From Sinorhizobium medicae (GTDB lineage: Bacteria > Pseudomonadota > Alphaproteobacteria > Rhizobiales > Rhizobiaceae), in the NCBI RefSeq assembly GCF_007827695.1, contig NZ_VITA01000006.1:248001-312000 (forward strand): 64,000 nucleotides of DNA. The letters are read 5' to 3'. The number at the start of each line of letters is the position of its first letter. Position 1 is the stretch's first letter. The notes under the pieces were generated by a model. That model saw only the letters and a list, made by a program, of their open reading frames with translations, did not search any database and had not been told where the DNA came from. Positions 5,947-50,406 of this stretch are shown in pieces. The translations under genes were made by a program, and so were the position numbers.

Positions 5947-5947
5947 C

Positions 5948-6742
5948 TCAAGCCTCCCGTATGGAAATCGCGGATATCTGCCGTCCATAGTCAGGCTCCT
6001 GCCTGTGCGTGGTACGGCGGTAGGAGAAAAAGCGGTCCTCGTCGGCATAGGTGCAGATGCCGAGATTTTCCGCGGTCACGCCGGCTTCCGCCAGACGCCG
6101 GACCGTCAGTCCGGGCAGATCGAACATGGCATGGCCGTCGCGGCCGGACGGGGTGAAAAAGGACTTGTAGCTTGCATCTGCGGCGACGAAACGGGCCACG
6201 AATTCGGGGCCAACCTCGTAATGCCTCCGGCTGATCGACGGGCCCAGGCAGGCAATGACACGCTCGCGACGGGCACCAAGCGAGATCATCGCTTCGATGG
6301 TGCTTTCGAGCACGCCGCCCAGCGCACCCTTCCATCCGGCATGGGCGGCACCGATCACGCCTGCTTCCGGATCGGCAAACAGAACTGGTCCGCAGTCGGC
6401 AGAAAGAACGCCGAGAACGATGCCGGGGGTCGCCGTCACCAGTGCATCGGCATCCGGCCGCGTGCCGTCATAGCTGGCGTCGACGATGATCGCATCCGGT
6501 GAATGGATCTGGTGCACAGTCGCAAGCCGCCGTGGCTCCGCATTGAACCAGCGGGCGACCCGAGCGCGATTTGTGCCGACTCGTTCCCGGTCGTCGTGAG
6601 AGCCGAGACCGACATTCAAGCCGCGATAGATGCCCTCGGACACGCCTCCCTCGCGGGTGAAATAGCCGTGTGCGATTGACGGGCCTGCCTTTGCGCCGAA
6701 GAGCGGGCTCTGCACAGGGGATAGCGAGGCATCATCCTGCAT
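5948..6742 (-). CDS. pgeF: peptidoglycan editing factor / multicopper-polyphenol-oxidase-like protein
   Basis: A 264-residue protein of the YfiH/PgeF/LACC1 family. Family members are Zn-dependent and have been described both as purine nucleoside-active enzymes and as factors that keep non-standard residues out of peptidoglycan precursors. The metal triad is visible: His in TVHQIHSPDAI, Cys in SADCGPVLFADP, and His in GAAHAGWKGAL. The C-terminal NLGICTYADEDRFFSYRR is also typical. The start is ATG at 6742, giving MQDDASLSPVQSPLF; the frame runs further upstream but that part is unlike the family. It is the third of four minus-strand genes in order lgt, methyltransferase, pgeF, M24-fold gene. 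Confidence 0.92.
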   Translation of the reverse strand: MQDDASLSPVQSPLFGAKAGPSIAHGYFTREGGVSEGIYRGLNVGLGSHDDRERVGTNRARVARWFNAEPRRLATVHQIHSPDAIIVDASYDGTRPDADALVTATPGIVLGVLSADCGPVLFADPEAGVIGAAHAGWKGALGGVLESTIEAMISLGARRERVIACLGPSISRRHYEVGPEFVARFVAADASYKSFFTPSGRDGHAMFDLPGLTVRRLAEAGVTAENLGICTYADEDRFFSYRRTTHRQEPDYGRQISAISIREA

Positions 6743-6869
6743 TCGGTGTTTTCGCCCTCGTGATTTTCTAAGTTCATTGGAATTGAGGGCGCATTGCGGC
6801 CCGTCGACTTGCAGCTGATTTGCCGCCGCGATGTTGACCCGGCGGACCGGCACTGTCAATCGCCCCGCT

Positions 6870-7973
6870 CTAGGGCGCCTTCTTCTGAAAGGGTGCCAGG
6901 GCGACTTCCGGACTGCTGACCACCAGTACCTTGAACAATTCTCCCATCTTGCCCGGGCCGGAGCCCGCAAGCCGTTCGACATCGTCGCGAATGCCTTCCT
7001 GCGTCGATTCGCCCTTGTCCCGGCCAAGCGCTGCGGCGCGTTCCAGGAGGCCGAGGCCGACCAGGAAATCGCCCTGACGGACGAGTCCGTTTACCTGTAC
7101 CCCTTCCGCTTTCGCCCGGCTCGCCAATTGCTCGAAATCGACATGGCTGGTCATGTCGGCGAAACCCGGATTGGCGAGTGGCGGATCGTATTCATGGTTT
7201 CGCACGGCCTGCAGAGTGTCGCCGTAGCCGGTCGCCAGATGGCCGTAGTCGATGATGAGCGCCGTGCCGCCGCCGGCGCGAAGGCGCTCGCAGAGCGCGG
7301 CCATCACGGCGTCGCGAGCCGGCGCGATTTCGAAGATCGTGCCTTCGGGAACAGAGGCGGCCGGAGTGGGAAGAAGCGTCGGATCAATGCCGCCAGCGCC
7401 TGCGGCAAATGTCAGTCGATCCTCCGTATCGAGGCCGATCATGCGTTCGCGGAAGCCCTGCGGGGTCCGCACGAACTGACGGATCGGGATTGCGTCGAAA
7501 AGCTCGTTCGCAGCCAGGAGCAGGAATCCCGACGGCAGGCTGTCGAAGCTCTCATGCCAGCGAATCTTGCCTTCGTGCTCGGCCAAACCCTTGGCTTGCA
7601 CCTCGCGAAGCCGATCGCTGGTCTCGACGAGATGCACCGTCGCCGTCCCGTAAAGCGTCGGCGCCAGCCGGCGGATGACGCGCAACATGTCGGACATCAT
7701 CGTGCCGCGACCTGGCCCGATCTCGCTTATAATGGCATTTGCGGGTGCTCCGTGCTGCTGCCAGGCATGCACGAGGAATATGCCGATCATCTCGCCGAAA
7801 AGCTGACTGATCTCCGGCGCGGTGGTGAAGTCGCCAGCCGCCCCGAAAGGCTCACGGACGCGATAGTAGCCGTGCTGCGGATCAGCAAGGCAGAGGGAGA
7901 AATAGTCGGTAACGCTGATCGGTCCATTGGCCCGGATCAGCGCCTTGATCTTGTCGGCGAGAGGATTCGTCAT
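6870..7973 (-). CDS. MidA/NDUFAF7-family SAM-dependent methyltransferase
   Basis: A 367-residue class I methyltransferase of the MidA family. The mitochondrial relative NDUFAF7 dimethylates an arginine of complex I subunit NDUFS2, so a role in complex I assembly is plausible (inference). Seen: ISVTDYFSLCLADPQHGYY near the N-terminus, GDFTTAPEISQLFGE, the SAM-binding IISEIGPGRGTMMSDML, LAANELFDAIPIRQF, and the C-terminal QGDFLVGLGLLERA. The start is ATG at 7973, 11 bases after the lgt stop; a TTG at 7988 would overlap lgt. Tight spacing suggests cotranscription with lgt. Confidence 0.9.
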   Translation of the reverse strand: MTNPLADKIKALIRANGPISVTDYFSLCLADPQHGYYRVREPFGAAGDFTTAPEISQLFGEMIGIFLVHAWQQHGAPANAIISEIGPGRGTMMSDMLRVIRRLAPTLYGTATVHLVETSDRLREVQAKGLAEHEGKIRWHESFDSLPSGFLLLAANELFDAIPIRQFVRTPQGFRERMIGLDTEDRLTFAAGAGGIDPTLLPTPAASVPEGTIFEIAPARDAVMAALCERLRAGGGTALIIDYGHLATGYGDTLQAVRNHEYDPPLANPGFADMTSHVDFEQLASRAKAEGVQVNGLVRQGDFLVGLGLLERAAALGRDKGESTQEGIRDDVERLAGSGPGKMGELFKVLVVSSPEVALAPFQKKAP

Positions 7974-7984
7974 GACCCGTCCAG

Positions 7985-8827
7985 TCAAGCGGCGGCGGCA
8001 GCGCTGCGCGCCCGCGCAATGGCCCAGATTCCTATAAGCGCCATCGGCACTGAAAGCACCATGCCCATAGTGAGCCAGTCCCCGGCAAGATAGCCGATCT
8101 GTGCATCCGGTTCGCGGAAGAACTCCACGAAAATGCGGCTTGCGGCATAGCCGCAGACGAATATGCCGGTGACGAGGCCGGGGATTTTCAAAGCTTTGCG
8201 GCGATAGACGAACCAGGCGAGGACGGCGAGAAGAACCAGGCCCTCGAGAGCGGCCTCGTAGAGCTGGCTCGGATGGCGTGCAAAGGGCCCTCCCGTCGGG
8301 AAGACGACCGCCCAGGGCACAGAAGACAGGCGGCCCCAGAGTTCTCCATTGATGAAATTGGCGATGCGGCCAAAGAAAAGTCCGATAGGCACCACGGCAG
8401 CCACCACGTCGAACAGGCTCCAGATGGGGATCGCGTTTCTACGCGCAAAGATGATCATCGCCAGGGTCGTGCCCACAAGACCGCCGTGAAAGGACATGCC
8501 GCCGTTCCAGATCTGGATCGCGCGGAGGGGGTCGTCGAGGATGGAGCCGAGATCGTAGAAGAGTATGTAGCCGATGCGTCCCCCGAGCACGATGCCGCCG
8601 GCGGCCCAGAGCAGGAAATCGTCAAGTTGCGTCAGGTTGCAGGCGGGGGTTCCGTTGCGCCAGAGGGCGGCGTTCTGGACGATGCGGCGCGCATAGAACC
8701 ACCCGAGGAGGATACCCACTACATAGGCGAGGCCGTACCAGCGCACCGCGAGCGGCCCGATCGTGAAGATCACGGGGTCGATTTCGGGGAAGGGGAGAAT
8801 GGCGAGGCGGGTCGCGATGGTTTCCAA
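7985..8827 (-). CDS. lgt: prolipoprotein diacylglyceryl transferase
   Basis: Inner-membrane enzyme that moves diacylglyceryl from phosphatidylglycerol to the lipobox cysteine of prolipoproteins. The length of 280 residues is normal. It has about seven hydrophobic segments, the substrate-binding MSFHGGLVG, the Lgt signature [21 protein letters not shown], and the late [12 protein letters not shown]. It heads a minus-strand series with the MidA-type methyltransferase, pgeF and the M24-fold gene, and diverges from ubiK (gap of 274 bases). It serves the several lipoproteins in this window, such as those at 3659 and 38896. Confidence 0.97.
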
Positions 8828-9101
8828 GATACTCTCTCGTGCCGGACCGATGGTTTGGGCGGAACATGACGAGCGAATGCGGCGCGGTCAAGCACCCCCT
8901 TGCTGCGGCGCAACAAGGGCTCCCGGTCTCTCGACGTACCAGGGCGGCCGAAACACGCTATATTGCTGCATGTCAATTCGAGGGGCCGGGAGATGTCGCG
9001 TTTCGTCGCCGGCGTCATTTTCCTTGCATCCTCCCTTCGGGGGCCCTACCTGAATCAGAGACTTCGCCGCATGTGGCGGACTGGAAATGGAGACCAGAAA
9101 G

Positions 9102-9392
9102 ATGAGCACAGGCGCCAACCGTATTCTCGATGATCTCGCCCGGCTGATGACGGATGCCGCAGGCGCGGCCCAAGGGGTGCGGCGCGAGGTCGAGGCGGCA
9201 TTTCGGGCGCAGACCGAAAACTGGCTGAACTCACTTGACGTCGTCAAGCGCGAGGAGTTCGAGGCGGTCAAGGAGATGGCGGCACGGGCTCGGGACGAGA
9301 ACGATTCTCTGCTGGCTCGCATCGAAGCACTCGAAGCGCGTTTGGCAGTGGCCAGCGGTCCCGCAGCGGGCGACATCACGACCGGCAAGTAA
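9102..9392 (+). CDS. ubiK: UbiK-family (BMFP-domain) ubiquinone biosynthesis accessory factor
   Basis: A 96-residue, strongly helical protein of the BMFP/YqiC family. In enterobacteria the homologue UbiK assists ubiquinone synthesis as a lipid-binding partner of the Ubi complex. Visible: the N-terminal helix RILDDLARLMTDAAGAAQGV, then a central LNSLDVVKREEFEAVKEMAA, and a C-terminal coiled coil LLARIEALEARLA of the type that drives trimerisation. The start at 9102 is preceded by GGAG; the frame from 9087 adds five residues with no site. The symbol is assigned by family. Confidence 0.8.
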   Translation: MSTGANRILDDLARLMTDAAGAAQGVRREVEAAFRAQTENWLNSLDVVKREEFEAVKEMAARARDENDSLLARIEALEARLAVASGPAAGDITTGK

Positions 9393-9847
9393 AACCCTAT
9401 TGACGCAGCTCTCGCTGAGAGACGCTGTGAGCGGCCGTGCCGCCGCCCTCATTGCCCATTCTATCCACGTCGCCAGCTTTCCGCATTGCCGCCTTCGCAC
9501 ATCACGACCATCGCGGCTAACAAAACGAAAAGTTTTCCACCTGTGGACACTGGCAAAAAACCTTTATCGCAGAGTCGTTTAAGCAGCCGCGCTGAATCAA
9601 AATCATAGCGGGCACGGCTGCTCATCCCTGCAATTTTTCGGCTCGGGGGCTGGCACGCTGACTCTGCCGTTATACACTGATTTTAAATGATGATTCGACG
9701 CGGGCCAAGCAAGCTCCGGGCAGGGTTAGTAAGCCAGGGTAGTCGCGGGTCCAGCAATCATAGTGTTCGTATCCGGTACTGGGTTTGCAGTGTTGCGTCC
9801 TGTGAGCGTGACTTTGCGCGCCTCTGCCGCGCCTTTTAGGGTGATGC
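9393..9847. other. 455-base intergenic region, no gene seen
   Basis: No convincing ORF. It is unusually A/T-rich at 9520-9610 and 9670-9700 for this chromosome and holds TTTTCCACCTGTGGAC at about 9530, a short quasi-palindrome loosely like DnaA boxes but with mismatches. The promoter for the YbjN-proC pair must lie here; I could not fix its elements. Confidence 0.5.
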
Positions 9848-10348
9848 ATGAGCCTTTTGGAAATGGAAGCCGAGCGCCAGTCCAACCCGGTCGATATGAT
9901 CGAGTTCGTCGCCGCGAACAATGACTGGTCCTTCGAGCGTTCCGGCGAAGACGAGATCGCCATGACCGTCGAGGGCAGGTGGGCGGACTATCATGTTTCC
10001 TTTTCCTGGATGGAAGAGTTCGAGGCGCTGCATCTGGCTTGTGCTTTCGACATCAAAGTGCCGGACAGCCGGGCAAACGAAGTGATCCGGCTTCTGTCCC
10101 ATATCAACGGGCAGGTGCTGATGGGTCATTTCGATCTGTGGCGCCAAGAAGAAGTCATCATCTTCCGGCAATCTCTGTTGCTTGCTGGCGGGGCGGAGCC
10201 TACCAACCAGCAAGTCGAAGTGCTCCTGTCGAATGCGCTCGACGCCTGCGAATCCTATTTCCAGGCGTTCCAGTTCGTCGTCTGGTCGGGCATGGATGCG
10301 CAGCGCGCGGTGGACGCGGTTCTGTTCGAGACCGTTGGGGAGGCATGA
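9848..10348 (+). CDS. YbjN domain-containing protein
   Basis: A 166-residue cytosolic protein with a YbjN (type III secretion chaperone-like) fold. The conserved core reads VDMIEFVAANNDWSFER, SFSWMEEFEALHLACAFD and LLSHINGQVLMGHFDLW. YbjN proteins affect stress responses and motility in E. coli, with no defined activity. It ends 2 bases before the GTG start of proC, an arrangement conserved in many alphaproteobacteria, so the two are almost surely one transcript. Whether it takes part in proline synthesis is unknown. Confidence 0.88.
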   Translation: MSLLEMEAERQSNPVDMIEFVAANNDWSFERSGEDEIAMTVEGRWADYHVSFSWMEEFEALHLACAFDIKVPDSRANEVIRLLSHINGQVLMGHFDLWRQEEVIIFRQSLLLAGGAEPTNQQVEVLLSNALDACESYFQAFQFVVWSGMDAQRAVDAVLFETVGEA

Positions 10349-10349
10349 A

Positions 10350-11174
10350 GTGAGCATCGCCGTTAAGGGTCCGATCGTGCTTGTCGGTGCCGGCAATATG
10401 GGCGGCGCCATGCTCGCGGGTTGGCTGAAAAGCGGGATCGCTGGTGGCGATCTTCTCGTAATCGATCCCGGACCGCCGCCTTCCATGGCGAAGCTGTTGG
10501 CGGATAACGGTGTCCGACATTCGACGTCAGCTCCGGCGGGGATCAAAGCGCGCGTGGTCTTCCTTGCCGTCAAGCCGCAGGTGATGGAGTCGGCTCTGCC
10601 GCCCGTAAAGGGGCTGGTCGGTTCCGAAACCGTGATCGTTTCCGTCGCCGCGGGCAAGACGCTCGGCTTCATCGAGCGCCACCTCGGCGAGGCTGCAACG
10701 GTTCGCGCCATGCCGAACACGCCCGCCATGATCGGGCGCGGTGTGACCGGTGCCTTCGCAAATGCCCGCGTCAGCGAAGCGCAGCGCGCGCTGGTGCACG
10801 ATCTGCTGAAAGTCAGCGGTCCGGTTGAATGGGTCCGGACCGAAGCGGATATAGATGCCGTGACCGCCGTCTCCGGCAGCGGCCCCGCTTACGTCTTCTA
10901 TCTCGTCGAGTGCATGGCAGAGGCCGGGCGCAAGGCCGGCCTCGAGGCGGACCTAGCCATGCGTCTCGCTCGGGAAACCGTCGCGGGGGCTGGTGAACTC
11001 CTCCATCAGTCCCCCGACGATGCAGCGCGCCTGCGCCAGAACGTTACGTCACCCGGCGGCACCACGGCTGCGGCGCTCGACGTTCTGATGGGAGAGGGCG
11101 GCATGCAGCCGCTCTTCGATAAGGCCATTGCAACAGCCCGCAAGCGCGCAGAAGAGCTGGCCGGCTCGCGGTAG
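10350..11174 (+). CDS. proC: pyrroline-5-carboxylate reductase
   Basis: Last step of proline synthesis: reduces 1-pyrroline-5-carboxylate with NAD(P)H. The 274-residue protein has the N-terminal Rossmann motif IVLVGAGNMGGAMLAGWL, the VAAGKTLGFIE segment, AMPNTPAMIGRGVTG, and the C-terminal family signature RLRQNVTSPGGTTAAALDV. The start is GTG at 10350, placed 1 base after the upstream TGA and preceded by GGGGAGG inside the YbjN gene. The open frame continues back to 10182 only because it lies in a shadow of YbjN. Confidence 0.96.
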   Translation: MSIAVKGPIVLVGAGNMGGAMLAGWLKSGIAGGDLLVIDPGPPPSMAKLLADNGVRHSTSAPAGIKARVVFLAVKPQVMESALPPVKGLVGSETVIVSVAAGKTLGFIERHLGEAATVRAMPNTPAMIGRGVTGAFANARVSEAQRALVHDLLKVSGPVEWVRTEADIDAVTAVSGSGPAYVFYLVECMAEAGRKAGLEADLAMRLARETVAGAGELLHQSPDDAARLRQNVTSPGGTTAAALDVLMGEGGMQPLFDKAIATARKRAEELAGSR

Positions 11175-40390: not shown

Positions 40391-40483
40391 GGATCGAGGC
40401 AACCGTTCGCCGCTGCCGTTTTCTCTTTCGGCGCGGCAGGCATTCTGCGTAGAGTGGAAGCGGGGCCGGTTTCGGAGGAGAAA

Positions 40484-40888
40484 ATGACAGACGCCCAGAC
40501 GATAGCCAGCCGTTTCATGGAAGCCCTGAACGATCGCGACTTCGACGCGCTTTCCCGCCTCGTCGACGAGGACGTTGCGTTCGACTCGCTCAGCGGAGAG
40601 CGAACCCTCGGTGCCGGCTCGCTCAGGAGCTGGATGATGAACTATCTGCGCCATTTCGACGAGAGCTTGAGTGACATCGTGCTGATGCGAGACGCCGCCG
40701 GCCAGCGCGTGGCTGCGGACACGACCGCGCGCGGCACTTACCGCGAGACTTTGGCCGGCTTTCCCGACGCCTCCGGTCAGGCCTATTCCATCGCGAGCGT
40801 CTTTGTCTTCGAGATCGAGGACGGCCTGATCACGCGGCTCAGCCAATATCGTAACATCCGGCTCTTCGAGCGGGAACTCGCGGGCTGA
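40484..40888 (+). CDS. SnoaL/NTF2-like protein (ketosteroid-isomerase-like fold)
   Basis: A 134-residue single-domain protein of the NTF2-like superfamily. N-terminal ASRFMEALNDRDFDALSRLV and VDEDVAFDS form the usual cone-shaped barrel start; DAAGQRVAADTTARGTY and VFVFEIEDGLITRLSQYRNI form the sheet. Such proteins are isomerases, hydrolases or ligand binders; no catalytic call is possible. The start at 40484 has CGGAGGAG. Confidence 0.85.
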   Translation: MTDAQTIASRFMEALNDRDFDALSRLVDEDVAFDSLSGERTLGAGSLRSWMMNYLRHFDESLSDIVLMRDAAGQRVAADTTARGTYRETLAGFPDASGQAYSIASVFVFEIEDGLITRLSQYRNIRLFERELAG

Positions 40889-41026
40889 ACACGATTCGTA
40901 GTGCGTGGCAGGGCGGGATCAACCTGAATACCGCATGAACGGACAGTTCCGGTGCCGTTCAGTTTGGCCGGGCTATTTTTGCCTCAACAGTCAAGCAGAA
41001 CCGCTTCGTCCCACCGGAGAAAAACC

Positions 41027-41380
41027 ATGAAGAAGTTCCTCGTTAATGCCGCCATTGCCGCCGTGATCGGATTGACCGGTCTGGTTTCCACTGCCTCTGC
41101 CCAGTCGCTCACCCTCGAAATCGGCCCGGGTGGCGTCCAGTATCGCGATTACGACCGTCACGACGACTGGCGGGGCCGCGGGCACTACGACCGCCGTGAC
41201 CGCCGTGGTCGCTGTGCACCCGGTCTCGCCGTCGAGAAGGCACGCGACCGTGGCCTTCGCCGCGCCTATGTCGCGGACGTAACGGGCCGCCGCGTCGTCG
41301 TCGAAGGCCGCCGCCGCGGCCACCGCCAGGCCATCGTGTTCGCCAATGCCCGCGGATGCCCGGTCATCGGCCGCTGGTAA
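41027..41380 (+). CDS. small exported Arg-rich protein
   Basis: A 117-residue secreted protein: signal peptide MKKFLVNAAIAAVIGLTGLV cut after TASA, then SLTLEIGPGGVQYRDYDRHD, a run of Arg/Asp/Gly (RGHYDRRDRRGR), and a conserved-looking C-terminal domain with two Cys (GRCAPGLAVEKARDRGLRRA, and NARGCPVIGRW), probably disulfide-bonded. Similar small periplasmic proteins are frequent in rhizobia; function unknown. CGGAG precedes the start. Confidence 0.82.
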   Translation: MKKFLVNAAIAAVIGLTGLVSTASAQSLTLEIGPGGVQYRDYDRHDDWRGRGHYDRRDRRGRCAPGLAVEKARDRGLRRAYVADVTGRRVVVEGRRRGHRQAIVFANARGCPVIGRW

Positions 41381-41420
41381 AAGCCCGAATTTCCGTCTTG
41401 TCTCCCCCGGCTGACGGAAA

Positions 41421-41459
41421 AGGAGCCCTCACGCCTCGGCGTGGGGGCTCCTTAGTTTT
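41421..41459 (+). terminator. intrinsic terminator
   Basis: AGGAGCCCTCACGCC / GGCGTGGGGGCTCCT, a 15-base stem with one G-U pair and a 2-base loop, followed by TTAGTTTTG. It ends the exported protein gene. Confidence 0.75.
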
Positions 41460-41518
41460 GCGCAAGGAAGAATGCATGCGGCTTTCCGCCGGCACCCCGC
41501 GTCTCAACGCTTTGAAAT

Positions 41519-41566
41519 CAATCACGATGTTTTAGATCGATCCGACCTGGAATATCGTGATCAAGC
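41519..41566. repeat. dispersed palindromic intergenic repeat, copy 3
   Basis: ATCACGATGTTTTAGATCGA and TCCGACCTGGAATATCGTGA TCAAGC, matching copies at 4558 and 12807 in both arms. It directly follows the stop of the SIMPL gene (41573). Confidence 0.7.
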
Positions 41567-41572
41567 ACAGCG

Positions 41573-42367
41573 CTACTGGTCGATGGCGAATGTCACGTTG
41601 ACGTTGACGTTGTAGGCATTCTCGCCCGTTGCGATGGGAACCGAATCGGCGGCAAATTCCTTGGCCATGCTTCGCACGACGGGAATCGGCTCGGGCCGGG
41701 AGGGCTGTTCCGAAATTTCAATCAGACGGCCGAGCGAGACGCCGGCCGCCTCTGCCAGAACCCTTGCCTTGTTGATTGCATCGGCGACCGCGGCCTTGCG
41801 GGCCTCCGTGATCACGGCTTCCGGCTTGTCGTTGGTGAACTCGATGCCGCCGCCCTGATTGACGCCGAGGCTTACGGATTTGTCGAGGATCTCGCCGAGC
41901 TGCCCCAGATCCCGCACGCGAACACCGACGCCGTTGACGACCTGGTAGCCCACCAGTTCCGGTGGCCGATTACCGCCGTCATTGTTCTGAGGATAGTGAT
42001 ATTGCGGATTGATCGAAAAGCCGCTCGTCTGAAGGTCGCGCTCGGCGATCCCGGCCTGCTTCAATGCCGAGAGCACGTCCGCCATCGCCTTGTTGTTGGC
42101 ATCGAGCGCCTCGCGCGCCGTTTTTGCGTCTTTGACTACGCTGAGCTGCAGAACCGCCATGTCCGGCGCAGTCGTCGAACGGCCTTCCCCGGAAACCTTG
42201 ATGACCGCCTGGCGGCCCCGGACGGCATCCGGACGCCCCTTTCCGTCTCCCTTGCCATCCTTGCCGGCGGCACTGTCTTGAGCGGCTGCTGCCGCCGCGA
42301 AGGCCCCAGCAAATGCGGCTGCAACTGCTGCGACATGTACGGTGCGGGCAATGCGTGTAGAGCTCAT
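41573..42367 (-). CDS. SIMPL-domain exported protein
   Basis: A 264-residue periplasmic protein of the SIMPL (DUF541) family, related to BP26/Omp28 of Brucella. Signal peptide at residues 1-28 (HVAAVAAAFAGAFAAAAAA, cut before QDS), then a charged Gly/Lys linker and the SIMPL domain: VIKVSGEGRSTTAPDMAVLQ, NNKAMADVLSALKQAGIAER, DLQTSGFSINPQY, and a C-terminal ARVLAEAAGVSLGRLIEISE. BP26 forms ring-like channel structures; the role is not settled. The start at 42367 has CCGGAGAG; the upstream frame runs toward the tRNA and is not coding. Confidence 0.92.
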   Translation of the reverse strand: MSSTRIARTVHVAAVAAAFAGAFAAAAAAQDSAAGKDGKGDGKGRPDAVRGRQAVIKVSGEGRSTTAPDMAVLQLSVVKDAKTAREALDANNKAMADVLSALKQAGIAERDLQTSGFSINPQYHYPQNNDGGNRPPELVGYQVVNGVGVRVRDLGQLGEILDKSVSLGVNQGGGIEFTNDKPEAVITEARKAAVADAINKARVLAEAAGVSLGRLIEISEQPSRPEPIPVVRSMAKEFAADSVPIATGENAYNVNVNVTFAIDQ

Positions 42368-42515
42368 CGGGGTTTCTCTCCGGTTGTTTGTCGCTGATTC
42401 CATGCTTACCGATTGTGTAGCTATTGCGGCAATGGCTTGTCGGCCAAAAAGATTTAGGCTAGAGCCAGCACTGCGGACTGCCATTGGTCCGCAACCGCCG
42501 ACCACGAGGACGGCA

Positions 42516-42591
42516 GGGCCTGTAGCTCAATGGTTAGAGCCGGCGGCTCATAACCGCTTGGTTGGGGGTTCGAGTCCCTCCGGGCCCACCA
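42516..42591 (+). tRNA. tRNA with CAU anticodon, probably tRNA-Ile2
   Basis: A complete 76-base cloverleaf: acceptor GGGCCTG/CGGGCCC with one G-U, D-arm GCTC-AATGGTTA-GAGC, anticodon stem GGCGG/CCGCT around CTCATAA, T-arm GGGGGTTCGAGTCCCTC, and encoded CCA. The anticodon is CAU. The anticodon arm plus variable region (GGCGGCTCATAACCGCTTGG) resembles the minor isoleucine tRNA of E. coli more than elongator methionine tRNA. It would then need TilS lysidine modification to read AUA. The Met alternative remains open. Confidence 0.9.
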
Positions 42592-42846
42592 TTCCCTCAT
42601 TGAACGTCGTTTTTCCTTCATTTTCCCGGGTCTGTCTCGCCGGAATTCTGCTTAGGCGAAAGCGAAACCTCCCGGGCCACATATGTCTTGCAGCGCTCGA
42701 AACCTGAATCGATGATGCGCTCGGGTCCGCACGGCTTCGTATAGTGCTGCTGCGCCATTCCTGCGTTGATCGCGGCATGGGGCGCTGCGCGGAAATCGCC
42801 GAGAGCGTTCTGGTGTCGCTATCCTGAGCCGGAACGGAGACCGCTG

Positions 42847-43178
42847 ATGCCCCGCTGGAAGAAGCCGACCAAAGAAGAAGTCCTGGAAAATCGACGCGAT
42901 CTGGCGAACCGTGCGCGCAGCGGTGAGCTGCGCTTGCCCCATGCCGTTGCTGAAATTCGCAAGGGCTTCGGCATGACGCAAGAGGAGTTTGCGAAGATGC
43001 TGGCGCTCACCAGGAGGCAGGTTGCCGAAATCGAAGCCGGCACAGCGAACCCGACATTGGAGACATTGGAAAAAATGGCCGTCTATTCGGCTTTGGGGTG
43101 GGTTTCGTGCCGGGGACGATAAAGAAAACTGAGAGCGAGCGTGATCCGGCGCCGAAAGGCTCTCACGAACGCCCATAG
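42847..43178 (+). pseudogene. XRE-type HTH regulator with a 3' frameshift
   Basis: The uninterrupted frame (42847-43122) encodes 91 residues: N-terminal KKPTKEEVLENRRDLANRAR and an XRE HTH (MTQEEFAKMLALTRRQVAEI, EAGTANPTLETLEKMA). It then ends in an atypical VYSALGWVSCRGR. Reading one frame over from 43083 gives LFGFGVGFVPGTIKKTESER and so on to a stop at 43178, the ending expected for this family. One missing C near 43080 (GGCC-GTCTA for GGCCCGTCTA) would account for the break. It may be a real frameshift or a base-call error. The start has GGAG. It would be a HipB-like DNA-binding protein; no hipA is adjacent. Confidence 0.6.
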
Positions 43179-43954
43179 CCGATCGACTGGCGTGCTGCAT
43201 CGCATTCTTCGCACGCCACTTCTGCCGGATGCAGGAAGACGAGCGGGTCGTGGGCCAATTGTTCCATTGCGATTTTCACGATGTCGCGTGAGCGGACCAG
43301 GCGGGCATGGGCGTTGCCGATCTGCCCCTCCTTCTGGAGGCCGTTTCGCCTCAACCAGACGTCGGCCAGGCTGAAGTTCTGGCAACAGTGATCATTCTCC
43401 AGATAGGCAATGCGGACCCGGCTGCCATTTTCGACGATCGTGCAGTGTCTCGGCACTCCATAAGGAACCTTGGACATCAGCTCGGCGAGATGCAAGGTGG
43501 TGTTCGAATCGTGTCCGACGCCGAGGAGTATCACCTGTCCGTCGAGTTCATGGATACGCCCTATCGGACTGGGGGGACAATGCGGGGGCAGGGGCAGGGG
43601 GTCCGATGTGATGCGTGCGGCAAGCGGTCCCGCCGCTGCAAAGGCGAACGGATGGTCGCTGCGCACCACACCCTCAAGACGCCAGAAAGTATCGGCGAGT
43701 ATTCCCAGATCCGATGTTGCTGAGGTCGTCGCCGGCTCGAATGGCTCGTCGTCAAGGCCCGACCAGGAGGGCATGACGAGCGTGCCTTCCGGGCCGATGG
43801 CGGTGCGCAGAGCGGCGATCATGCCGGCCGGACCGCCTTCGACCGGCCGGACGCTGCGAAACGAAGAGTGAACGACAAGAACGCCTCCGGGCTTCACCCC
43901 GAGGGTGAGGAGTTGATTGACGAGTTCCGAAATGCGCCATTCACGTTGCGTCAT
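43163..43954 (-). CDS. AAC(3)-family aminoglycoside N-acetyltransferase-like protein
   Basis: About 263 residues, antibiotic acetyltransferase family (AAC(3)/YokD fold), which transfers acetyl from acetyl-CoA to an amino group. Family motifs: GVLVVHSSFRSVRPVEGGPA, GPEGTLVMPSWSG, RSDHPFAFAAAGPLA, and the active-site loop GVGHDSNTTLHLAELMS with the catalytic His. The C-terminal part carries CEECDAARQS. Chromosomal members need not give resistance. ATG 43954 is used here; a GTG at 43975 is possible and neither has a good ribosome site. It converges with the frameshifted HTH gene, overlapping its restored end. Confidence 0.87.
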   Translation of the reverse strand: MTQREWRISELVNQLLTLGVKPGGVLVVHSSFRSVRPVEGGPAGMIAALRTAIGPEGTLVMPSWSGLDDEPFEPATTSATSDLGILADTFWRLEGVVRSDHPFAFAAAGPLAARITSDPLPLPPHCPPSPIGRIHELDGQVILLGVGHDSNTTLHLAELMSKVPYGVPRHCTIVENGSRVRIAYLENDHCCQNFSLADVWLRRNGLQKEGQIGNAHARLVRSRDIVKIAMEQLAHDPLVFLHPAEVACEECDAARQSIGYGRS

Positions 43955-43975
43955 GGTTGTACCGGATGAGTCCAC

Positions 43976-44320
43976 TTTAATTGGTGTTCTGACAGCGCTT
44001 GCTCACGGTATCGGCTTCGAACGCGTTGAAAATAGCGTTGAGGCGGGCGTGGAACAATAATGGGGAGCTCCGTCGGCGCTTTCAGGTTCCCCTTGGGAGC
44101 TATAAGCGGCATCGGTTGCCATGTTCCGCCTTTTCAAGCATGTTCATGCATGGCTGCATCTGGGCTGAAAACCGCGCACACTGGCTATCCGCTCTGCGGA
44201 CCGAGGTGTGATTGCCCTAAGGGGTGGAAGAGGGCTGGGTGAACGAGATTTCGATGCATTCGCCGGCGGCGGCCGGTGGTGACCTAAAATCATATTGATC
44301 TAAAGCCGTTTGGGGTTTTC
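43976..44320. other. 345-base region upstream of the BTAD regulator
   Basis: No ORF with coding character. It ends with a half copy of the dispersed palindromic repeat (44277-44305: GACCTAAAATCATATTGATC). A direct near-repeat CATGTTCATGCATGGCTGCA lies at about 44139. No clear promoter. Confidence 0.4.
44277..44305. repeat. half copy of the dispersed palindromic repeat
   Basis: GACCTAAAATCATATTGATC then TAAAG matches the right arm of the family (GACCTAAAAACATGAACGTG). It lies 16 bases before the GTG of the BTAD regulator, so it is in the leader of that gene. Confidence 0.4.
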
Positions 44321-46159
44321 GTGGCGGTGCCGCATTTTCATCTGCAGACATTCGGGGAATTGCGGCTGGTCGATTCCGGCGGCGTGGTCGTGGCGTGCCC
44401 GGAGCGGGGCCTGCTTATTCTGGCCTACCTCAGCATATCCGGGCAGAGAACGGTCTCCCGCGAAAAGCTCTCGATGCTGATCTGGCCCGAGCGGGAGAAG
44501 AGCGTCGCTTTCAAGAACCTGCGCTCTACCCTGTGGCGCATGCGCCACCTTGCCGCGAACTCGGGGCCGCTCACGTCGGCGACGGAAATAGATGTGACGC
44601 TGGGGGAGATTGCCTGCGACGCCGCCGGTTTCGAGGCGCTCGGGAGCTCGGAGGAAGCGTTTCGCGCCGGGCTCTCGCTCTGGCGCGATACGTTCCTAGC
44701 AGGCGCCGATGTGCCTCCCGGGCGTTATGCGGACTGGGTTGGAGAGCAGCGGAGCGTGTTTACGCAAAAGCTGCGCGCGGCACTTTTAGCCGGCGGAGAG
44801 CGATTTGCCGACAGGTCGATGCTGCGGACGGCGTGCATGCATCTCCTCGAACTCGATCCGGCGGATACTGCCGTGCGCGCAATCCTGGAGCGGTTGACCG
44901 GCGTGGGTCTCGTCATCGGGAAAGGCTCGCCGGACGGGGCCTGGCTGCGGCAGGGGGCCTTTGCAGGGGAGTCGCCCCGGGCGCCGGCAAGGGATGCGAT
45001 AACCCCGCCGGTTGCGCCCGCACCGCGCGTTGCGCTGCTTCCGCCCGCGGCTTTCGGCAGTGATCCGATGCTTCACGCGGTCAGCATGGCCGTGGTCGAA
45101 GACATCACGATCGGATTATGCGCGCTGCGCTCGATGTCGGTTGTTGCCCCTTACACTGCCGAGCGTATTCGGGATGCGGCGGACAAGGCTGCCTTCCTGG
45201 AAAAACATGCCGTCACTTATGCGCTCGACTGTCGCATGTCGGACCAGGGGCTGTTTACTCAACTCATCTTCCTGCCGTCCGACGCGATCGTCTGGGCGGA
45301 GCGCTTTTCGATCTCTCCGGTCGGGCTCCTGCAACAGCGTCAGGAAATTGCCTTTCACGTGGCCAGCGCGGTAGCGGAACAGGTGGAGACCGGGCGTATC
45401 GGGCACCTCGATTACGTGACCAATCCGGACGCCTATTACGCCTATCTCGCCGGCCTGCGAAACCTTTCGAACGTCGGCCTTCCCGAAATCCGCAGGGCAC
45501 GCCGCGATTTCAAGACGGCGCTCAGGCACAAGCCGGATTTTGCCCCGGCGCTAAGCGGCATCGCACGCACCTATGCGATCGAGTGGGTCCTGACGGCTCG
45601 GGGCGACCAGGAGCTTTTGACGGTAGCCGAGCGTCACGCCAAGGAAGCGATCGAGAGCGATGAAGAGCTTCCCGGAGCACATCGCGAATTCGGCGTCGTC
45701 AGACTTTATCAGGGCGACCTCGATGGAAGTCTTGCGGCGCTGGACCGCGCCGAAAATCTGAGCCCGCATTATGCCGACGTGCTGTACAGCCATGCGGACA
45801 CGCTCGTCCATGCCTCCCGCCCGCGTGAGGCTCTCGACAAGCTCGGCAAGGCGCTTTCGCTTAATCCCCTGGCGCCGGACATGTATTTCTGGAGCGCTGC
45901 CGGAGCCAGCTACTTTCTCGAAGAGTATGAGGATGCGATCGGCTACGTTCAGAAAATGAAGGACAAGTCGCCGGGCGACCGGCTGCTTGCAGCAAGCTGG
46001 GCGATGCTCGGCGATCAGAAGAAAGCGCGGTCATACAAGGTGAAGGCCCTGAGGGCCAATCCGACATTCGATGTCGACAAGTGGCTCGCCGTCGTTCCGA
46101 TGAAGGAACAATGGCAGAAGGACCTCTATCGCGAGGGGCTGAAAAGAGCGGGGTTTTGA
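44321..46159 (+). CDS. SARP/BTAD-type transcriptional regulator with TolB-like and TPR domains
   Basis: A 612-residue regulator. N-terminal winged HTH (about 1-90: RGLLILAYLSISGQRTVSRE, LSMLIWPEREKSVAFKNLRS), bacterial transcriptional activator domain (about 95-200), a Pro/Ala linker, a TolB-N-like domain (about 230-365: VAVVEDITIGLCALRSMSVV, YALDCRMSDQGLFTQL, IVWAERFSI), then TPR repeats (about 395-600: GAHREFGVVRLYQGDLDGSL, DKLGKALSLNPLAPDMYFW). SARP-type proteins often control secondary-metabolite genes. Two genes follow without a gap, ending in YcaO, so it probably controls or co-expresses with them. The start is GTG at 44321 with a poor site. Confidence 0.85.
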   Translation: MAVPHFHLQTFGELRLVDSGGVVVACPERGLLILAYLSISGQRTVSREKLSMLIWPEREKSVAFKNLRSTLWRMRHLAANSGPLTSATEIDVTLGEIACDAAGFEALGSSEEAFRAGLSLWRDTFLAGADVPPGRYADWVGEQRSVFTQKLRAALLAGGERFADRSMLRTACMHLLELDPADTAVRAILERLTGVGLVIGKGSPDGAWLRQGAFAGESPRAPARDAITPPVAPAPRVALLPPAAFGSDPMLHAVSMAVVEDITIGLCALRSMSVVAPYTAERIRDAADKAAFLEKHAVTYALDCRMSDQGLFTQLIFLPSDAIVWAERFSISPVGLLQQRQEIAFHVASAVAEQVETGRIGHLDYVTNPDAYYAYLAGLRNLSNVGLPEIRRARRDFKTALRHKPDFAPALSGIARTYAIEWVLTARGDQELLTVAERHAKEAIESDEELPGAHREFGVVRLYQGDLDGSLAALDRAENLSPHYADVLYSHADTLVHASRPREALDKLGKALSLNPLAPDMYFWSAAGASYFLEEYEDAIGYVQKMKDKSPGDRLLAASWAMLGDQKKARSYKVKALRANPTFDVDKWLAVVPMKEQWQKDLYREGLKRAGF

Positions 46160-46176
46160 TGATGAGGGGAAGCGAT

Positions 46177-46392
46177 ATGGCAGAAGTCGTAGTAATTGGT
46201 ATTGCCGGCGAGCAAGGTTTGTGGCTGGCGGATCTGAAAAATGGAACGGTCAGGCCGCTCGATCAGGTGTCGGGCGATCTCGCCACGGCGAACAAGCTCC
46301 GCCTGCAGGGCGGGACGATCGTCAAGAATGTTGATCTCGCAGTAGCGGTGTCGTCGGCCGACAAGGTGTTTTCGGGGCATTTCGACGGGTGA
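46177..46392 (+). CDS. 71-residue protein coupled to YcaO, possible substrate or partner
   Basis: Sequence MAEVVVIGIAGEQGLWLADL, then KNGTVRPLDQVSGDLATANK, LRLQGGTIVKNVDLAVAVSS and ADKVFSGHFDG. It lacks Cys, is rich in beta-forming residues, and has no signal peptide or TM segment. It starts 17 bases after the BTAD regulator (site AGGGGA) and its TGA overlaps the GTG of YcaO (GTGA), so the two are translationally coupled. It occupies the position where TfuA or a precursor peptide sits in other YcaO clusters. I recognise no family. Substrate, recognition partner or neither are all open. Confidence 0.7.
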   Translation: MAEVVVIGIAGEQGLWLADLKNGTVRPLDQVSGDLATANKLRLQGGTIVKNVDLAVAVSSADKVFSGHFDG

Positions 46393-47603
46393 TCGGCTTC
46401 GCTGTCGGCAGTCCTGCAGACACGCGCAATGCTTATTCCGATCGCGTTCTGAGCCCGGAAGAGACGTTCGACCGTGTCCGGCCACTGCTTTCCCGGTTCG
46501 GCGTGACCCGCATCGCACGGCACACGGGCCTCGACAGGATCGGGCTCCCGGTCTGGTGCGCCTACACGCCGAACGCACGATCGATCGCGGTTGCGCAGGG
46601 CAAGGGATTGACGGATCCGGAGGCGAAGGTTTCCGCGGTCATGGAGGCGCTGGAGCGCGCCGTTGCCTGCGAGCCCGCCGTCGGAACAATGGTCGCCACG
46701 GCCCGGACCTTGCGTGCATCCGGACGGACCGTGGAGCTGCTTCCCTGCCTGATTGCGGCCGGGCAGCAGGATATAGGGCCGGACGAAGAACTCGCATGGG
46801 CCCTCGGCTCCGACCTGATCTCCGGCCGCGAGATACTCGTGCCGCTCGCAGCGGCGCTGCTCGACCGTACCCTGCATTCGCGTTTCTGGATGTCGTCGGA
46901 TGGACTTGCGTCGGGAAACGTCGTGGAAGAAGCGATATTGCACGGACTGCTGGAGCGCATCGAGCGAGACGCGCACGTCCTCTGGGGCATCTCGGGGCGG
47001 GAGCACCGTTACGGGTGCTGTGTCGCTCCCGAGAGCCTGGGCGATGCAGCGTTGAACGGTCTCGTTGAGCGCATTGGGGCCGCCGGACTCGATCTCCGGC
47101 TTTTCGAAATCACCAGCGACATAGGCATTCCCTGTTTCCTGGCGCTGCTCGGCCCACCCGATATCGCGACCAGGGGCGGTGGCCGCTTCGTCGAAGTGAC
47201 GAGCGGCTGCGGCGCACATGTTTTTCCCGCCCGGGCGGCGATCAGGGCGGTGACAGAAGCGGCGCAGTCCCGGCTCACCTTCATCAGTGGTGCCCGGGAC
47301 GATGTCTTTCCCGAGACCTTCAACCGGCCCTTGCCGGAACTGACGCGGCAGGCCTTCCTCGCCGAGCCATCCAGACGGGCCATCGCCAGCCCGCAGGTCG
47401 GCGGAAGCCTTGAAGCGCTGCTGCGCCACACCGTTGATCACCTGACGAGCGCCGGCGTGCAATCTGCAATTGCGCTTCGTCTGTCGGCGAACGCGCTTCC
47501 GTTCTCGGTCGTCAAGATCTTCGTTCCCAAACTCGAGAATCCGGATGGTGATCGAGCGCGCCGTTTTGGTCCGCGTGCACTATCCAAAGCGCTCGCATCG
47601 TGA
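46389..47603 (+). CDS. YcaO-family ATP-dependent cyclodehydratase/thioamidation enzyme
   Basis: A 404-residue YcaO protein. YcaO enzymes phosphorylate a peptide-backbone amide oxygen with ATP to form azolines, amidines or thioamides. The signature DRIGLPVWCAYTPNARSIAV is followed by AQGKGLTDPEAKVSAVMEAL ERAV, with the ATP/Mg-binding Glu of EALER. A second typical block is EEAILHGLLERIERDAHVLW, then HVFPARAAIRAVTEAAQSRL. The C-terminus (FVPKLENPDGDRARRFGPRA) lacks the Pro-rich PxPxP tail that marks azoline-forming YcaOs. No TfuA, E1-like, dehydrogenase or transporter gene is adjacent. The GTG start overlaps the preceding TGA. Confidence 0.88.
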   Translation: MIGFAVGSPADTRNAYSDRVLSPEETFDRVRPLLSRFGVTRIARHTGLDRIGLPVWCAYTPNARSIAVAQGKGLTDPEAKVSAVMEALERAVACEPAVGTMVATARTLRASGRTVELLPCLIAAGQQDIGPDEELAWALGSDLISGREILVPLAAALLDRTLHSRFWMSSDGLASGNVVEEAILHGLLERIERDAHVLWGISGREHRYGCCVAPESLGDAALNGLVERIGAAGLDLRLFEITSDIGIPCFLALLGPPDIATRGGGRFVEVTSGCGAHVFPARAAIRAVTEAAQSRLTFISGARDDVFPETFNRPLPELTRQAFLAEPSRRAIASPQVGGSLEALLRHTVDHLTSAGVQSAIALRLSANALPFSVVKIFVPKLENPDGDRARRFGPRALSKALAS

Positions 47604-47738
47604 CGGGAGCGGGCAATGGGGCTCCGGGCGAAGATCCGCTAAATACTCCACCTGAGCGTGTGCAACGCTCGTGAAACGCGCGGAAATGCCGAACTCGTTT
47701 ATAGTCGCCCTCATCACAGGCATGGATTGGGGGTTCAT

Positions 47739-47960
47739 ATGACTAATCATTCTTCGTCCTTGACGGATACCGAGGTGGAACTTGCGAGCATTGCCCGAAT
47801 GTTGAGCCACATTCGCGAGAGCGCTCGTGCCTTGGAGGCACAGGCCGTCGAGTATTGCATCGATATGGCACTGCAAGCGGTCGCCAACGAATTGCGGGAT
47901 CGCGGCGAGCTCGTCATTGCCGCTGCGGGCTTCGACAATAGAACGACCCTGCTGCAATAG
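47739..47960 (+). CDS. 73-residue helical protein downstream of YcaO
   Basis: MTNHSSSLTDTEVELASIAR then MLSHIRESARALEAQAVEYC and IDMALQAVANELRDRGELVI, ending AAAGFDNRTTLLQ. It is predicted to be two or three amphipathic helices with one Cys, soluble, of unknown family. GGGGG precedes the ATG by 4-5 bases. It lies 135 bases after YcaO on the same strand; that gap could hold its own promoter, so membership in the YcaO unit is uncertain. A weak hairpin (48020-48048) follows. Confidence 0.6.
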   Translation: MTNHSSSLTDTEVELASIARMLSHIRESARALEAQAVEYCIDMALQAVANELRDRGELVIAAAGFDNRTTLLQ

Positions 47961-48066
47961 CGCGCTGCGGGGAAACCCGCCTGCGCTGCTACCGCACCCG
48001 ACCGCACTTCTTTCGTCCTCACCATTCCTGTGGCATACAGGAAGGTGGGGATATGAAGAGCAAGCG

Positions 48067-48861
48067 TCAGCGATCCAGTTCCGGATAGACCCTGTCGAGA
48101 AATCCCGGCCGGAGCTTCTCGCCTATCATGCAGTCCGCCGCATTTTCGCCGGCCGCCAGGCGGAGCGCCGGATCGGGCTCGCGCCCGCTTACCTCGAGGA
48201 TCAGCTTCTGACGGATTGCGACCGCGAAATCCTCGGGTTCATGCACGGGCAACACGAAGGAGCCGGGGCCGCCAATGACGCATTCGGCGTAATACCGGTC
48301 GAGCGGCCCGGTCGAGACCGAAGGGCGGATGAGGATTGCAAGACCGTTGATTATAATGCCCCGCGATAGGGCGTCGTTGCGTGCGGGTGTAACCGGCGGC
48401 CCGGTATTGTTCGGCCCGTCGCCGGAGATGTCGATGACCCTTCGCGTACCCGAATATGCGTTCGAATCGATGAGGTCCGAACCAAACAGGATCGCGTTCG
48501 AGATCGAGGTGCCGCGCCGTGTTCCGATTGGCCGAGCCTCCAGCTTGCCGGCGAAGGCTTCGGCGTCGGCAGAACTTTCGATCACTTGCCAGCTCACGAC
48601 TGAGGCCTCGTTTACGAGCCCTGCCCATTCGAAATAGCCTATGGCGATCCGCCCGAGGAGGCCTCCCTGGACCGCATTGATGAAATCCGGATGCCGCAGC
48701 GCCTGCAGATATCCGGAGCGCTGCACGCGCGCCTCCTCCATGTCCATCGAGCCGGACATGTCGACGGCCAGCAGGAGTTCTACGTCGACGTCAGCGGAAA
48801 TGGCTGCCGACTGTATCGGAGCTCCGCTCAGTGCCAGGATCAATGCCATCGTGCCTAACAT
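48067..48861 (-). CDS. DUF1194 exported von Willebrand factor A-like protein
   Basis: A 264-residue protein with a signal peptide at the N-terminus (MLGTMALILALSGAPIQSAA), then a VWA-like domain. The metal-ion-dependent adhesion motif is VDVELLLAVDMSGSMDMEEA and RRGTSISNAI supplies the next ligand, with IDISGDGPNN completing it. The C-terminus contains conserved Cys residues (AECVIGGPGSFV, NAADCMIGEKLRPG). The DUF1194 family is frequent in alphaproteobacteria and unassigned. I use the ATG at 48861; a TTG at 48873 is possible. It converges with the YcaO-side genes. Confidence 0.88.
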   Translation of the reverse strand: MLGTMALILALSGAPIQSAAISADVDVELLLAVDMSGSMDMEEARVQRSGYLQALRHPDFINAVQGGLLGRIAIGYFEWAGLVNEASVVSWQVIESSADAEAFAGKLEARPIGTRRGTSISNAILFGSDLIDSNAYSGTRRVIDISGDGPNNTGPPVTPARNDALSRGIIINGLAILIRPSVSTGPLDRYYAECVIGGPGSFVLPVHEPEDFAVAIRQKLILEVSGREPDPALRLAAGENAADCMIGEKLRPGFLDRVYPELDR

Positions 48862-49092
48862 CGCATCAGCCAATCACCGTGGATCACGCGTCGGGCGTTC
48901 TGCCCCTGCACCCGGGTACCGCGAGGCGCCTTAGAGCGATGTCGCCGTCCGGGTCGATGTCATTCCATGAATGTATCACAGGTTTTGAGATCGGCGACTG
49001 TCGGAGCGATGCAGACCTACAATATTCGGTGATCGCGGTTGGTCTGCGTGGCCTGCCGCAATGTGACCAACCTCGTCGACCAGTAGGCTGGC

Positions 49093-50406
49093 ATGTCTCT
49101 CCACAGCCGCACATCGGATATCGCCTGCATCGACGGGCTGCAGCGCGCCGCCTTCGAATACTTTCTTCGGTATTCGGACATGCGAAGCGGCCTCGTCGCC
49201 GACACGTCTCGCGCGGGTTCTCCGTCGAGCATCGCCGCCACGGGTTTCGGACTTGCGGCCTATCCGGTCGCGGTCGAACGCGGCTGGATCGCCCGGTCGG
49301 ACGCTGCCTGGCGCGTGCTGACCACCCTCCGGTTTTTCGCGGCAAGCCGTCAGGGGAGCGATGCGAGCGCGACCGGTTATCGCGGATTCTACTACCATTT
49401 CCTCGACATGCGGACGGGGGATCGCGTCTGGCGCAGTGAGCTCTCCACGATCGACACCAGCCTGCTCCTCGCCGGTGCCTTGACGGCGGCAGCTTATTTC
49501 TCTGGCCGCAGCGAAGAGGAGAGTGAGCTCAGGCGGCTTGCGGCGCTCCTCTACGAGAGGGCGGATTGGTACTGGGCGCTGAATGGCGGCGACACGGTCA
49601 CGATGGGGTGGCGCCCGCCGGGGCGATTTTTGAAACACCGCTGGCGGGGTCATAGCGAGGCGCTGCTCCTCTACGTCCTGGCACTCGGCTCGCCCACGCG
49701 CCCGATCATGCCGCCGAACTACGAGGCCTACACGGCAGCGCATGAGTGGCTGGAACTCGATGGGGCGGCGCATCTCCATGCCGCCGCGCTCTTCGTCCAC
49801 CTTTTTCCGCAGGCATGGATCGATTTTCGCAGCATCCGGGATAAGGGGATGCGCGACAGGGCCACCGACTATTTCGATAACACCCGCCGCGCCATCCGGC
49901 TGCAGCGCGCCCATGCCGAGGAAAACCCTCATGGATTCGCCGGCTATTGCCGCGACCTCTGGGGTTTCAGCGCCTGTCATGCGCCGAAAGGCTGGTTTCG
50001 GCTTCGCGACGGCCGGCGGCAGAAGTTGCTGGGCTACGAGGCACGCGGCGCACCGTTTGGTGCCGACGACGGAACACTCGTTCCCTGGGCGCCGCTGGCC
50101 GGGCTGCCATTCGAACCGGACGCGTGTCTCGGCAGTCTTTTTCATCTGATGTCGCGTTACCCCGCCCTGGTGAAGGAGGAACGCCTTCCCGGCGGTTTCA
50201 ATCCCAGCCTGCCGGGGGACGGTCCCGAGGGATGGATGGACGATAGACTCGTCGGCCTTGACCAAGGGCTCGTCGTCATGATGATCGAGAATTGGAGGAG
50301 CGGCCTGGTTTGGGAACTGACGCGCGGCATTCCGGCCTTTCGTCAGGGGTTGAGCAGGGCTGGATTTGCGGGAGGCTGGCTTTCGTCGACGCTGCTTCAA
50401 GTCTGA
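49093..50406 (+). CDS. glycoamylase-family (PF10091, GH144-like) glycoside hydrolase
   Basis: A 437-residue (alpha/alpha)6-barrel protein of the COG5368/PF10091 family. The founding characterised member of GH144 is an endo-beta-1,2-glucanase, and rhizobia make cyclic beta-1,2-glucan, so that polymer is a plausible substrate. Seen: QRAAFEYFLRYSDMRSGLVA DTS at the start, TATGF-like SSIAATGFGLAAYPVAVERG, GFYYHFLDMRTGDRVWRSEL STIDTSLLLAG with the conserved Glu and Asp, GWRPPGRFLKHRWRGHSEAL, and the late GFNPSLPGD with DQGLVVMMIENWRSGLVW. No signal peptide is visible, so it appears cytosolic. Start ATG at 49093. Confidence 0.85.
   Translation: MSLHSRTSDIACIDGLQRAAFEYFLRYSDMRSGLVADTSRAGSPSSIAATGFGLAAYPVAVERGWIARSDAAWRVLTTLRFFAASRQGSDASATGYRGFYYHFLDMRTGDRVWRSELSTIDTSLLLAGALTAAAYFSGRSEEESELRRLAALLYERADWYWALNGGDTVTMGWRPPGRFLKHRWRGHSEALLLYVLALGSPTRPIMPPNYEAYTAAHEWLELDGAAHLHAAALFVHLFPQAWIDFRSIRDKGMRDRATDYFDNTRRAIRLQRAHAEENPHGFAGYCRDLWGFSACHAPKGWFRLRDGRRQKLLGYEARGAPFGADDGTLVPWAPLAGLPFEPDACLGSLFHLMSRYPALVKEERLPGGFNPSLPGDGPEGWMDDRLVGLDQGLVVMMIENWRSGLVWELTRGIPAFRQGLSRAGFAGGWLSSTLLQV

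Follow-up and report, generated by a model that had tools for sequence, protein, structure and literature searches.

Which molecule does a YcaO enzyme modify, and with which partner protein, when neither is evident beside it? The question is raised by a three-gene locus of Sinorhizobium medicae, located in a 64,000-nucleotide stretch of contig NZ_VITA01000006.1 (positions 248,001 to 312,000; the window refers to this whole stretch). The locus begins with REG (44321..46159, + strand), a 612-residue open reading frame (ORF) with a GTG start that encodes a putative regulator with TPRs, whose N-terminal part may bind DNA. Directly downstream are P71 (46177..46392, +), a 71-residue ORF with an ATG start, and YcaO (46389..47603, +), a 404-residue ORF with a GTG start. 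The ORF listing agrees with the first-pass annotation on all three ORFs, on the 17 bases that separate REG from P71 and on the GTGA overlap of P71 with YcaO. That annotation described the trio as a self-contained backbone-modifying system. We conclude instead that the trio is probably most of a thioamide-type pathway for a ribosomally synthesized and post-translationally modified peptide (RiPP), split across the genome, with TfuA in trans in the clade of the window.

The gene order is widely conserved. In a set of at least 80 related loci (all counts out of 80 refer to these listed loci), 72 of the 80 Rhizobiaceae loci have REG, P71 and YcaO in order and on the same strand, which answers the earlier question of whether the order holds beyond this genome. 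Because the trio is conserved across species, it is very unlikely to consist of chance ORFs. Six of the exceptions, L055, L062, L063, L066, L067 and L099, have neither P71 nor an intact REG at the locus; in the other two, L075 and L088, REG is missing and P71 is represented by a multi-unit homologue. In all eight of these genomes P71 is matched elsewhere, beyond the fetched locus and in some perhaps on the same contig. The proposed pathway occurs in part of the Rhizobiaceae. In another family of the order, one locus (L165 of G045, 5184-9531) encodes distant REG-like (28%), YcaO (35%) and TfuA (44%) proteins, and P71 is not detectable in this arrangement.

The relatives identify the missing partner. 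Outside the window clade, that is, in the 71 of 80 loci that do not share the VWA/glucoamylase neighbours of the window, TfuA (at least 550 nt matched) lies immediately behind YcaO in 69 of the 71, at a spacing of 0-39 nt between tblastn ends (TfuA of L065 is matched in two pieces). The two remaining loci contain TfuA fragments (L063) or no TfuA (L067). TfuA is downstream of YcaO in none of the nine window-clade loci, and in L045 it lies upstream of REG in divergent orientation. Nine window proteins (the trio and six neighbours, 40454-50403) were included in one family scan and eight (five neighbours) in the other; among these proteins, which cover part of the flanking ORFs, there was no match to the TfuA, E1-like or RiPP recognition element (RRE) families. 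The earlier statement that TfuA and RiPP machinery are absent therefore holds locally and fails genome-wide, since a TfuA gene resides on another contig, C1.

The window genome has five YcaO and three TfuA genes, the latter on contigs C1, C12 and C48. In the TfuA tree the C1 protein groups with the TfuA of the trio operon family, whereas the proteins of C12 and C48 fall outside this group. Its gene has an XRE gene just upstream and no YcaO match on the same contig, and the protein is 100% identical to its counterparts in eight S. medicae plasmid records of ∼1.5 Mb. S. meliloti 1021 carries the orthologue on pSymB, with the XRE gene and flanks in common with the window genome.

We found the same separation throughout the window-type members of the genus. 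Among 33 genomes of the genus (the window's own included) within a 60-genome set of relatives, 22 have a window-type YcaO (64-100% identity) and 11 have the other type (56-59%). TfuA is adjacent to the other-type YcaO in 11 of 11 genomes, and in 22 of 22 genomes with the window type a TfuA of the trio-operon subfamily is located elsewhere. Seventeen of these 22 TfuA proteins are 64-100% identical to the C1 protein, and none of the 17 genomes has a second full-length TfuA in the 45-50% class. The other five (G001, G012, G021, G024 and G025) have a TfuA of 45-50% identity that forms a separate clade: in G021 it lies only ∼2.7 kb from YcaO, in G025 it is beside REG-P71, ∼0.8 Mb from YcaO, and in G001 and G024 it is part of a second P71-YcaO-TfuA set. 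Similarly, TfuA occurs outside the downstream position in 11 of 11 genomes whose locus has no intact downstream TfuA (nine Sinorhizobium loci, L063 and L067), several of which are probably the same strains as among the 22. An enzyme that works alone, without TfuA, was considered and rejected in view of the C1 gene, the 22/22 unlinked and the 69/71 adjacent cases, and the first-pass reading of a self-contained system is likewise not supported. A plasmid collection yielded four window-type YcaO matches (∼80% identity) on records of 3.5-3.7 Mb. One of these, CP090106.1 (L168; 3.72 Mb), is labelled S. meliloti pSymB and carries the window-type operon; this label is probably wrong for a record of that size, given the 1.68 Mb of pSymB in strain 1021.

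The candidate substrate is P71. The first-pass annotation saw no RiPP precursor, yet P71 itself looks like one, with a leader (approximately residues 1-48) and a core (approximately residues 49-71). In the AlphaFold2 model, per-residue confidence (pLDDT) is 75-82 for residues 1-40, 61 for residues 41-50 and 34-36 over the last 22, which are modelled as disordered; the model gives the N-terminal part the form of a small beta-beta-beta-alpha unit. The C-terminal ∼22 residues of the window protein, the proposed core, read VKNVDLAVAVSSADKVFSGHFDG. Several homologues carry this C-terminal unit in two to five tandem copies behind one leader: two in L155, three in L157, P0127 and P0128, four in P0121 and P0123-P0126, and five in P0122. 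The multi-unit homologues of L075, L088, L155 and L157 adjoin a YcaO-TfuA pair. Self-repeat scores of four multi-unit homologues were 54, 67, 60 and 91, as compared to maxima of 46, 41, 31 and 34 in 500 shuffles, and four single-unit P71 proteins scored 11-17, under their own shuffle maxima.

P71 also follows the enzyme from genome to genome. Among 111 Rhizobiaceae genomes, with a YcaO E-value limit of 1e-70 that we chose, P71 occurs in 17 of 18 genomes with a trio-type YcaO and in 0 of 93 others (Fisher p = 4e-19, kinship ignored). In the 60-genome set P71 is present in 34 genomes, the same 34 that have a YcaO of at least 50% identity, and these also carry a TfuA of at least 45% identity over nearly the full length. 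Two genomes of this set that have no P71 are G051 (TfuA 56% across 131 residues at the end of a contig, YcaO 36%) and G045 (TfuA 44%, YcaO 37%). Each of the 22 window-type genomes keeps a P71. Of the two targets that the first-pass annotation proposed, the evidence now favours the small partner, with P71 as the putative substrate, and a housekeeping protein loses ground because P71 tracks the YcaO subfamily genome by genome.

A housekeeping target would nevertheless return if P71 were an accessory protein (for leader binding, as a scaffold or for sulfur relay) and YcaO-TfuA modified some other protein. P71, YcaO and TfuA diverge at similar rates (mean distances 0.46-0.49, 62 loci), and the modelled beta-beta-beta-alpha unit also speaks for such a role. 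Foldseek ranks 1-5 and 7 for P71 are lasso-peptide B1 proteins, which we take to be RREs, at non-significant E-values of 0.38-0.79, and these proteins are absent from the VIA-align list. There is also a precedent, since PMC13063428 describes thioamidation of the ribosomal protein uL16 by the E. coli YcaO. The same text gives the E. coli enzyme a TPR domain; Pfam finds none on the window YcaO, and the E. coli enzyme is not among the solved-structure matches of the window protein. The tandem C-terminal units fit cores better than a scaffold, and several genomes have extra P71 copies beside REG with YcaO not adjacent. We therefore regard an accessory role for P71 as unlikely. P71 as a known domain was rejected: no Pfam family matches the window protein, and across 38 members there were single-member matches only (best E = 0.038). 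No family name for P71 was found among the matches listed (best 120 of 314).

The enzyme is a full-length match to PF02624 (E = 8.8e-65), a family of ATP-dependent backbone amide-modifying enzymes, and this is the sole Pfam domain on the 404-residue protein. The closest solved structure is MJ1094 (E = 6e-32), with nearly the whole protein covered. Most of the motif residues, presumably the ATP/Mg site, are invariant across 80 family rows, those of the window clade included. The conserved TfuA points to thioamides, and we infer that the window YcaO is thioamide-forming. Azolines or a macrolactamidine on P71, with a loss of 18 Da, would be the other outcome of a YcaO reaction, and according to PMC13063428 the superfamily makes all such products; the core contains Ser, and Cys occurs in some multi-unit homologues. 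That outcome is quite improbable given the TfuA partner, the absence of Cys from 38 of 38 P71 alignment rows and the lack of a terminal PxPxP in 80 of 80 YcaO rows, the latter in line with the missing Pro-rich tail in the first-pass description. E1-like and dehydrogenase families, moreover, were unmatched among the scanned neighbours.

Several observations weigh against the proposed pathway. The P71 model is weak overall (mean pLDDT 63, pTM 0.50), family and fold searches gave no significant match for the leader, and some units of the multi-unit homologues contain Cys. The enzyme-like divergence rate of P71 noted above is unlike typical RiPP precursors and could reflect an accessory-protein role. 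G169, whose YcaO is a borderline member of the subfamily (41% identity), has no P71. The window YcaO passes the generic model TIGR00702 only and falls below the cut-offs of TIGR03266 (186.3 vs 365 bits) and of the SagD model TIGR03604 (102 vs 219 bits). The conserved operon showed no protease, exporter, immunity or tailoring gene. The TfuA proteins of C12 and C48 could also serve the window YcaO, and the label of CP090106.1, taken as it stands, counts against a clean division between chromosome and megaplasmid.

In the proposed pathway P71 would be made on the ribosome as a precursor with an N-terminal leader and a C-terminal core of ∼22 residues. The N-terminal part would recruit YcaO and TfuA for action on the C-terminal unit, where YcaO would use ATP to activate a backbone amide in the core and TfuA would help sulfur to replace the carbonyl oxygen, yielding a thioamide (+16 Da). 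In the Sinorhizobium clade of the window the working partner would be the distant TfuA, supplied in trans from a megaplasmid in S. medicae and S. meliloti, and REG would control the set.

How the pair came apart is suggested by the trees. The window-clade YcaO proteins form one clade (support 99) beside Rhizobium operons (support 87), and the C1-type TfuA proteins form a clade (support 98) beside Ensifer operons (support 82). The YcaO tree has 67 rows and the TfuA tree 72, with similar loci and short rows thinned out; both were built by a quick method with SH-aLRT support only and gave long-branch warnings. The flanks of the C1 XRE-TfuA region match pSymB of S. meliloti 1021 and two relatives (L161, L162), and the Ensifer operon loci match the C1 region at XRE and TfuA only. 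This pattern fits a hybrid that would have arisen by duplication or transfer and then reciprocal loss. In G001 a YcaO fragment lies directly beside REG-P71 (L155), which is also consistent with such an origin. Excision from one operon may be an alternative origin.

The same fragment, the only YcaO sequence directly beside REG-P71 of G001, could be read as decay of the window-clade system, with the split marking a loss of function, and the YcaO of G013 has an in-frame TAG. We consider decay highly improbable: only one of the 22 window-type genomes has a YcaO with an internal stop, P71 and TfuA are kept in 22 of 22, and the invariance of most YcaO motif residues extends to the window clade.

REG had been labelled a BTAD/TolB-like/TPR regulator. 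Pfam supports the TPRs only; BTAD has no Pfam match and Trans_reg_C appears at a weak E-value of 0.23. The AlphaFold2 model (mean pLDDT 85) begins with an N-terminal part that is mixed alpha/beta and then helical (residues 1-193). A disordered linker (195-230) leads from there to an alpha/beta part (∼235-330), and helical repeats make up the remainder (∼336-610), a predicted arrangement compatible with the label. TPR superhelix rows fill the match lists of the fold search, which gives no information on the N-terminal part. REG probably controls the gene set.

REG-P71 pairs also occur with no YcaO in the fetched stretch (L159, L200, L201, L203, L205), which suggests two modules, one of regulator and peptide and one of maturation enzymes. 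Two copies of the pair look broken: in L204 the P71 match is split in two, and in L202 the REG match is fragmented. The REG-P71 units without an adjacent YcaO hint at signalling by a modified peptide in these Gram-negative bacteria: REG and P71 might be a receptor-pheromone pair whose modules move separately, with the thioamidated core as ligand of the REG TPR domain. We analysed co-variation in 62 loci and then in 78 REG-P71 pairs, reduced to 33 non-redundant ones. Of the N-terminal, middle and TPR parts of REG, only the TPR part co-varies with the P71 core (median partial correlation 0.23, above 0 in 97.7% of subsamples). This hint is weak because the values carry no phylogeny correction, and against it the core-TPR value falls to 0.16 once YcaO is included, core and YcaO reach 0.30, the leader and the middle part of REG 0.26, and the core and XRE 0.22. 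Of the marks of RRNPP receptors (Rap, Rgg, PlcR), TPRs and a neighbouring candidate peptide gene were observed for REG; its TPR matches are generic, with proteins of eukaryotes higher in the ranking. We judge peptide signalling through REG rather unlikely, and feedback of the peptide on REG is speculative.

Around the conserved trio, an XRE-type helix-turn-helix gene was matched in 74 of 80 loci and a small protein, S, in 71 of 80. In the window S is a 73-residue protein downstream of YcaO (47739..47960, +); in other genera it comes after TfuA, and it has no family match above any cut-off. Upstream of REG, at 43163-43975 (-), the window encodes a homologue of the AAC(3)-IV family of aminoglycoside N-acetyltransferases (490.7 bits vs an NCBIfam equivalog cut-off of 420), which also adjoins the trio locus in L039, L040 and L153. 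Other YcaO genes of this genome have neighbourhoods of their own. Contig C12 (L008:6948-9165) contains a second YcaO-TfuA pair with a 1023-residue ORF overlapping its start region, and weaker YcaO and TfuA matches resembling this pair occur in many genomes of the genus. Contig C48 (L007) contains two YcaO genes and a 457-residue TfuA, both families being confirmed by family search; by eye, it also has several similar small proteins of ∼109 residues with the look of Nif11-type precursors, an E1/rhodanese-like protein, a ThiS/MoaD-like carrier, a PhyH-type oxygenase and a methyltransferase. On contig C26 (L006:7453-9747, 10054-10608) a 764-residue YcaO protein stands beside an NHLP-like, repeat-bearing candidate precursor (by eye) that has Cys in its repeats, the repeat region being partly masked.

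TfuA-YcaO clusters are already known, and the dispersal across the genome is the new part. According to PMC8120280 (Malit 2021), Rhizobium has more than 500 such clusters, and mining for thioamide RiPPs selects clusters that hold both ycaO and tfuA. Searches for both genes in one cluster would be expected to miss the proposed pathway in S. meliloti and S. medicae, where the two lie at distant sites or on different replicons. Our literature search returned no title on the trio locus and nothing on TfuA in S. meliloti; P71 may be present, unnamed, in the supplements of PMC8120280. The strain behind L109 has an antiSMASH 'TfuA-related toxin' cluster, according to PMC7356062, and this may be the trio operon. 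S. meliloti and S. medicae are genetically tractable symbionts, and if the proposed pathway is right, substrate, enzyme and partner are all named, the split is a natural test of TfuA working in trans, and the dispersed REG-P71 units give a concrete hypothesis on the purpose of a conserved thioamidated rhizobial peptide.

Three known systems invite comparison. The clusters of the thiovarsolin and thioviridamide class share the YcaO, TfuA and small precursor, and precursors of thiovarsolin relatives are reported in PMC6511847 to span non-repeating forms up to five repeats. Unlike them, the system described here has TfuA unlinked in one clade, ycaO and tfuA not adjacent in the window, a REG gene, a conserved operon in which no tailoring or export gene was seen, and a candidate precursor that bears no family name among the matches listed. 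MJ1094, the YcaO of McrA-glycine thioamidation (TIGR03266), is the best solved-structure match; in contrast, the window YcaO is bacterial, falls below that equivalog cut-off and has a small-protein partner. The E. coli YcaO, for which PMC13063428 reports uL16 thioamidation, belongs to the same superfamily with presumably the same chemistry, whereas the window YcaO is without a TPR domain and has its own TfuA subfamily and an adjacent small candidate substrate.

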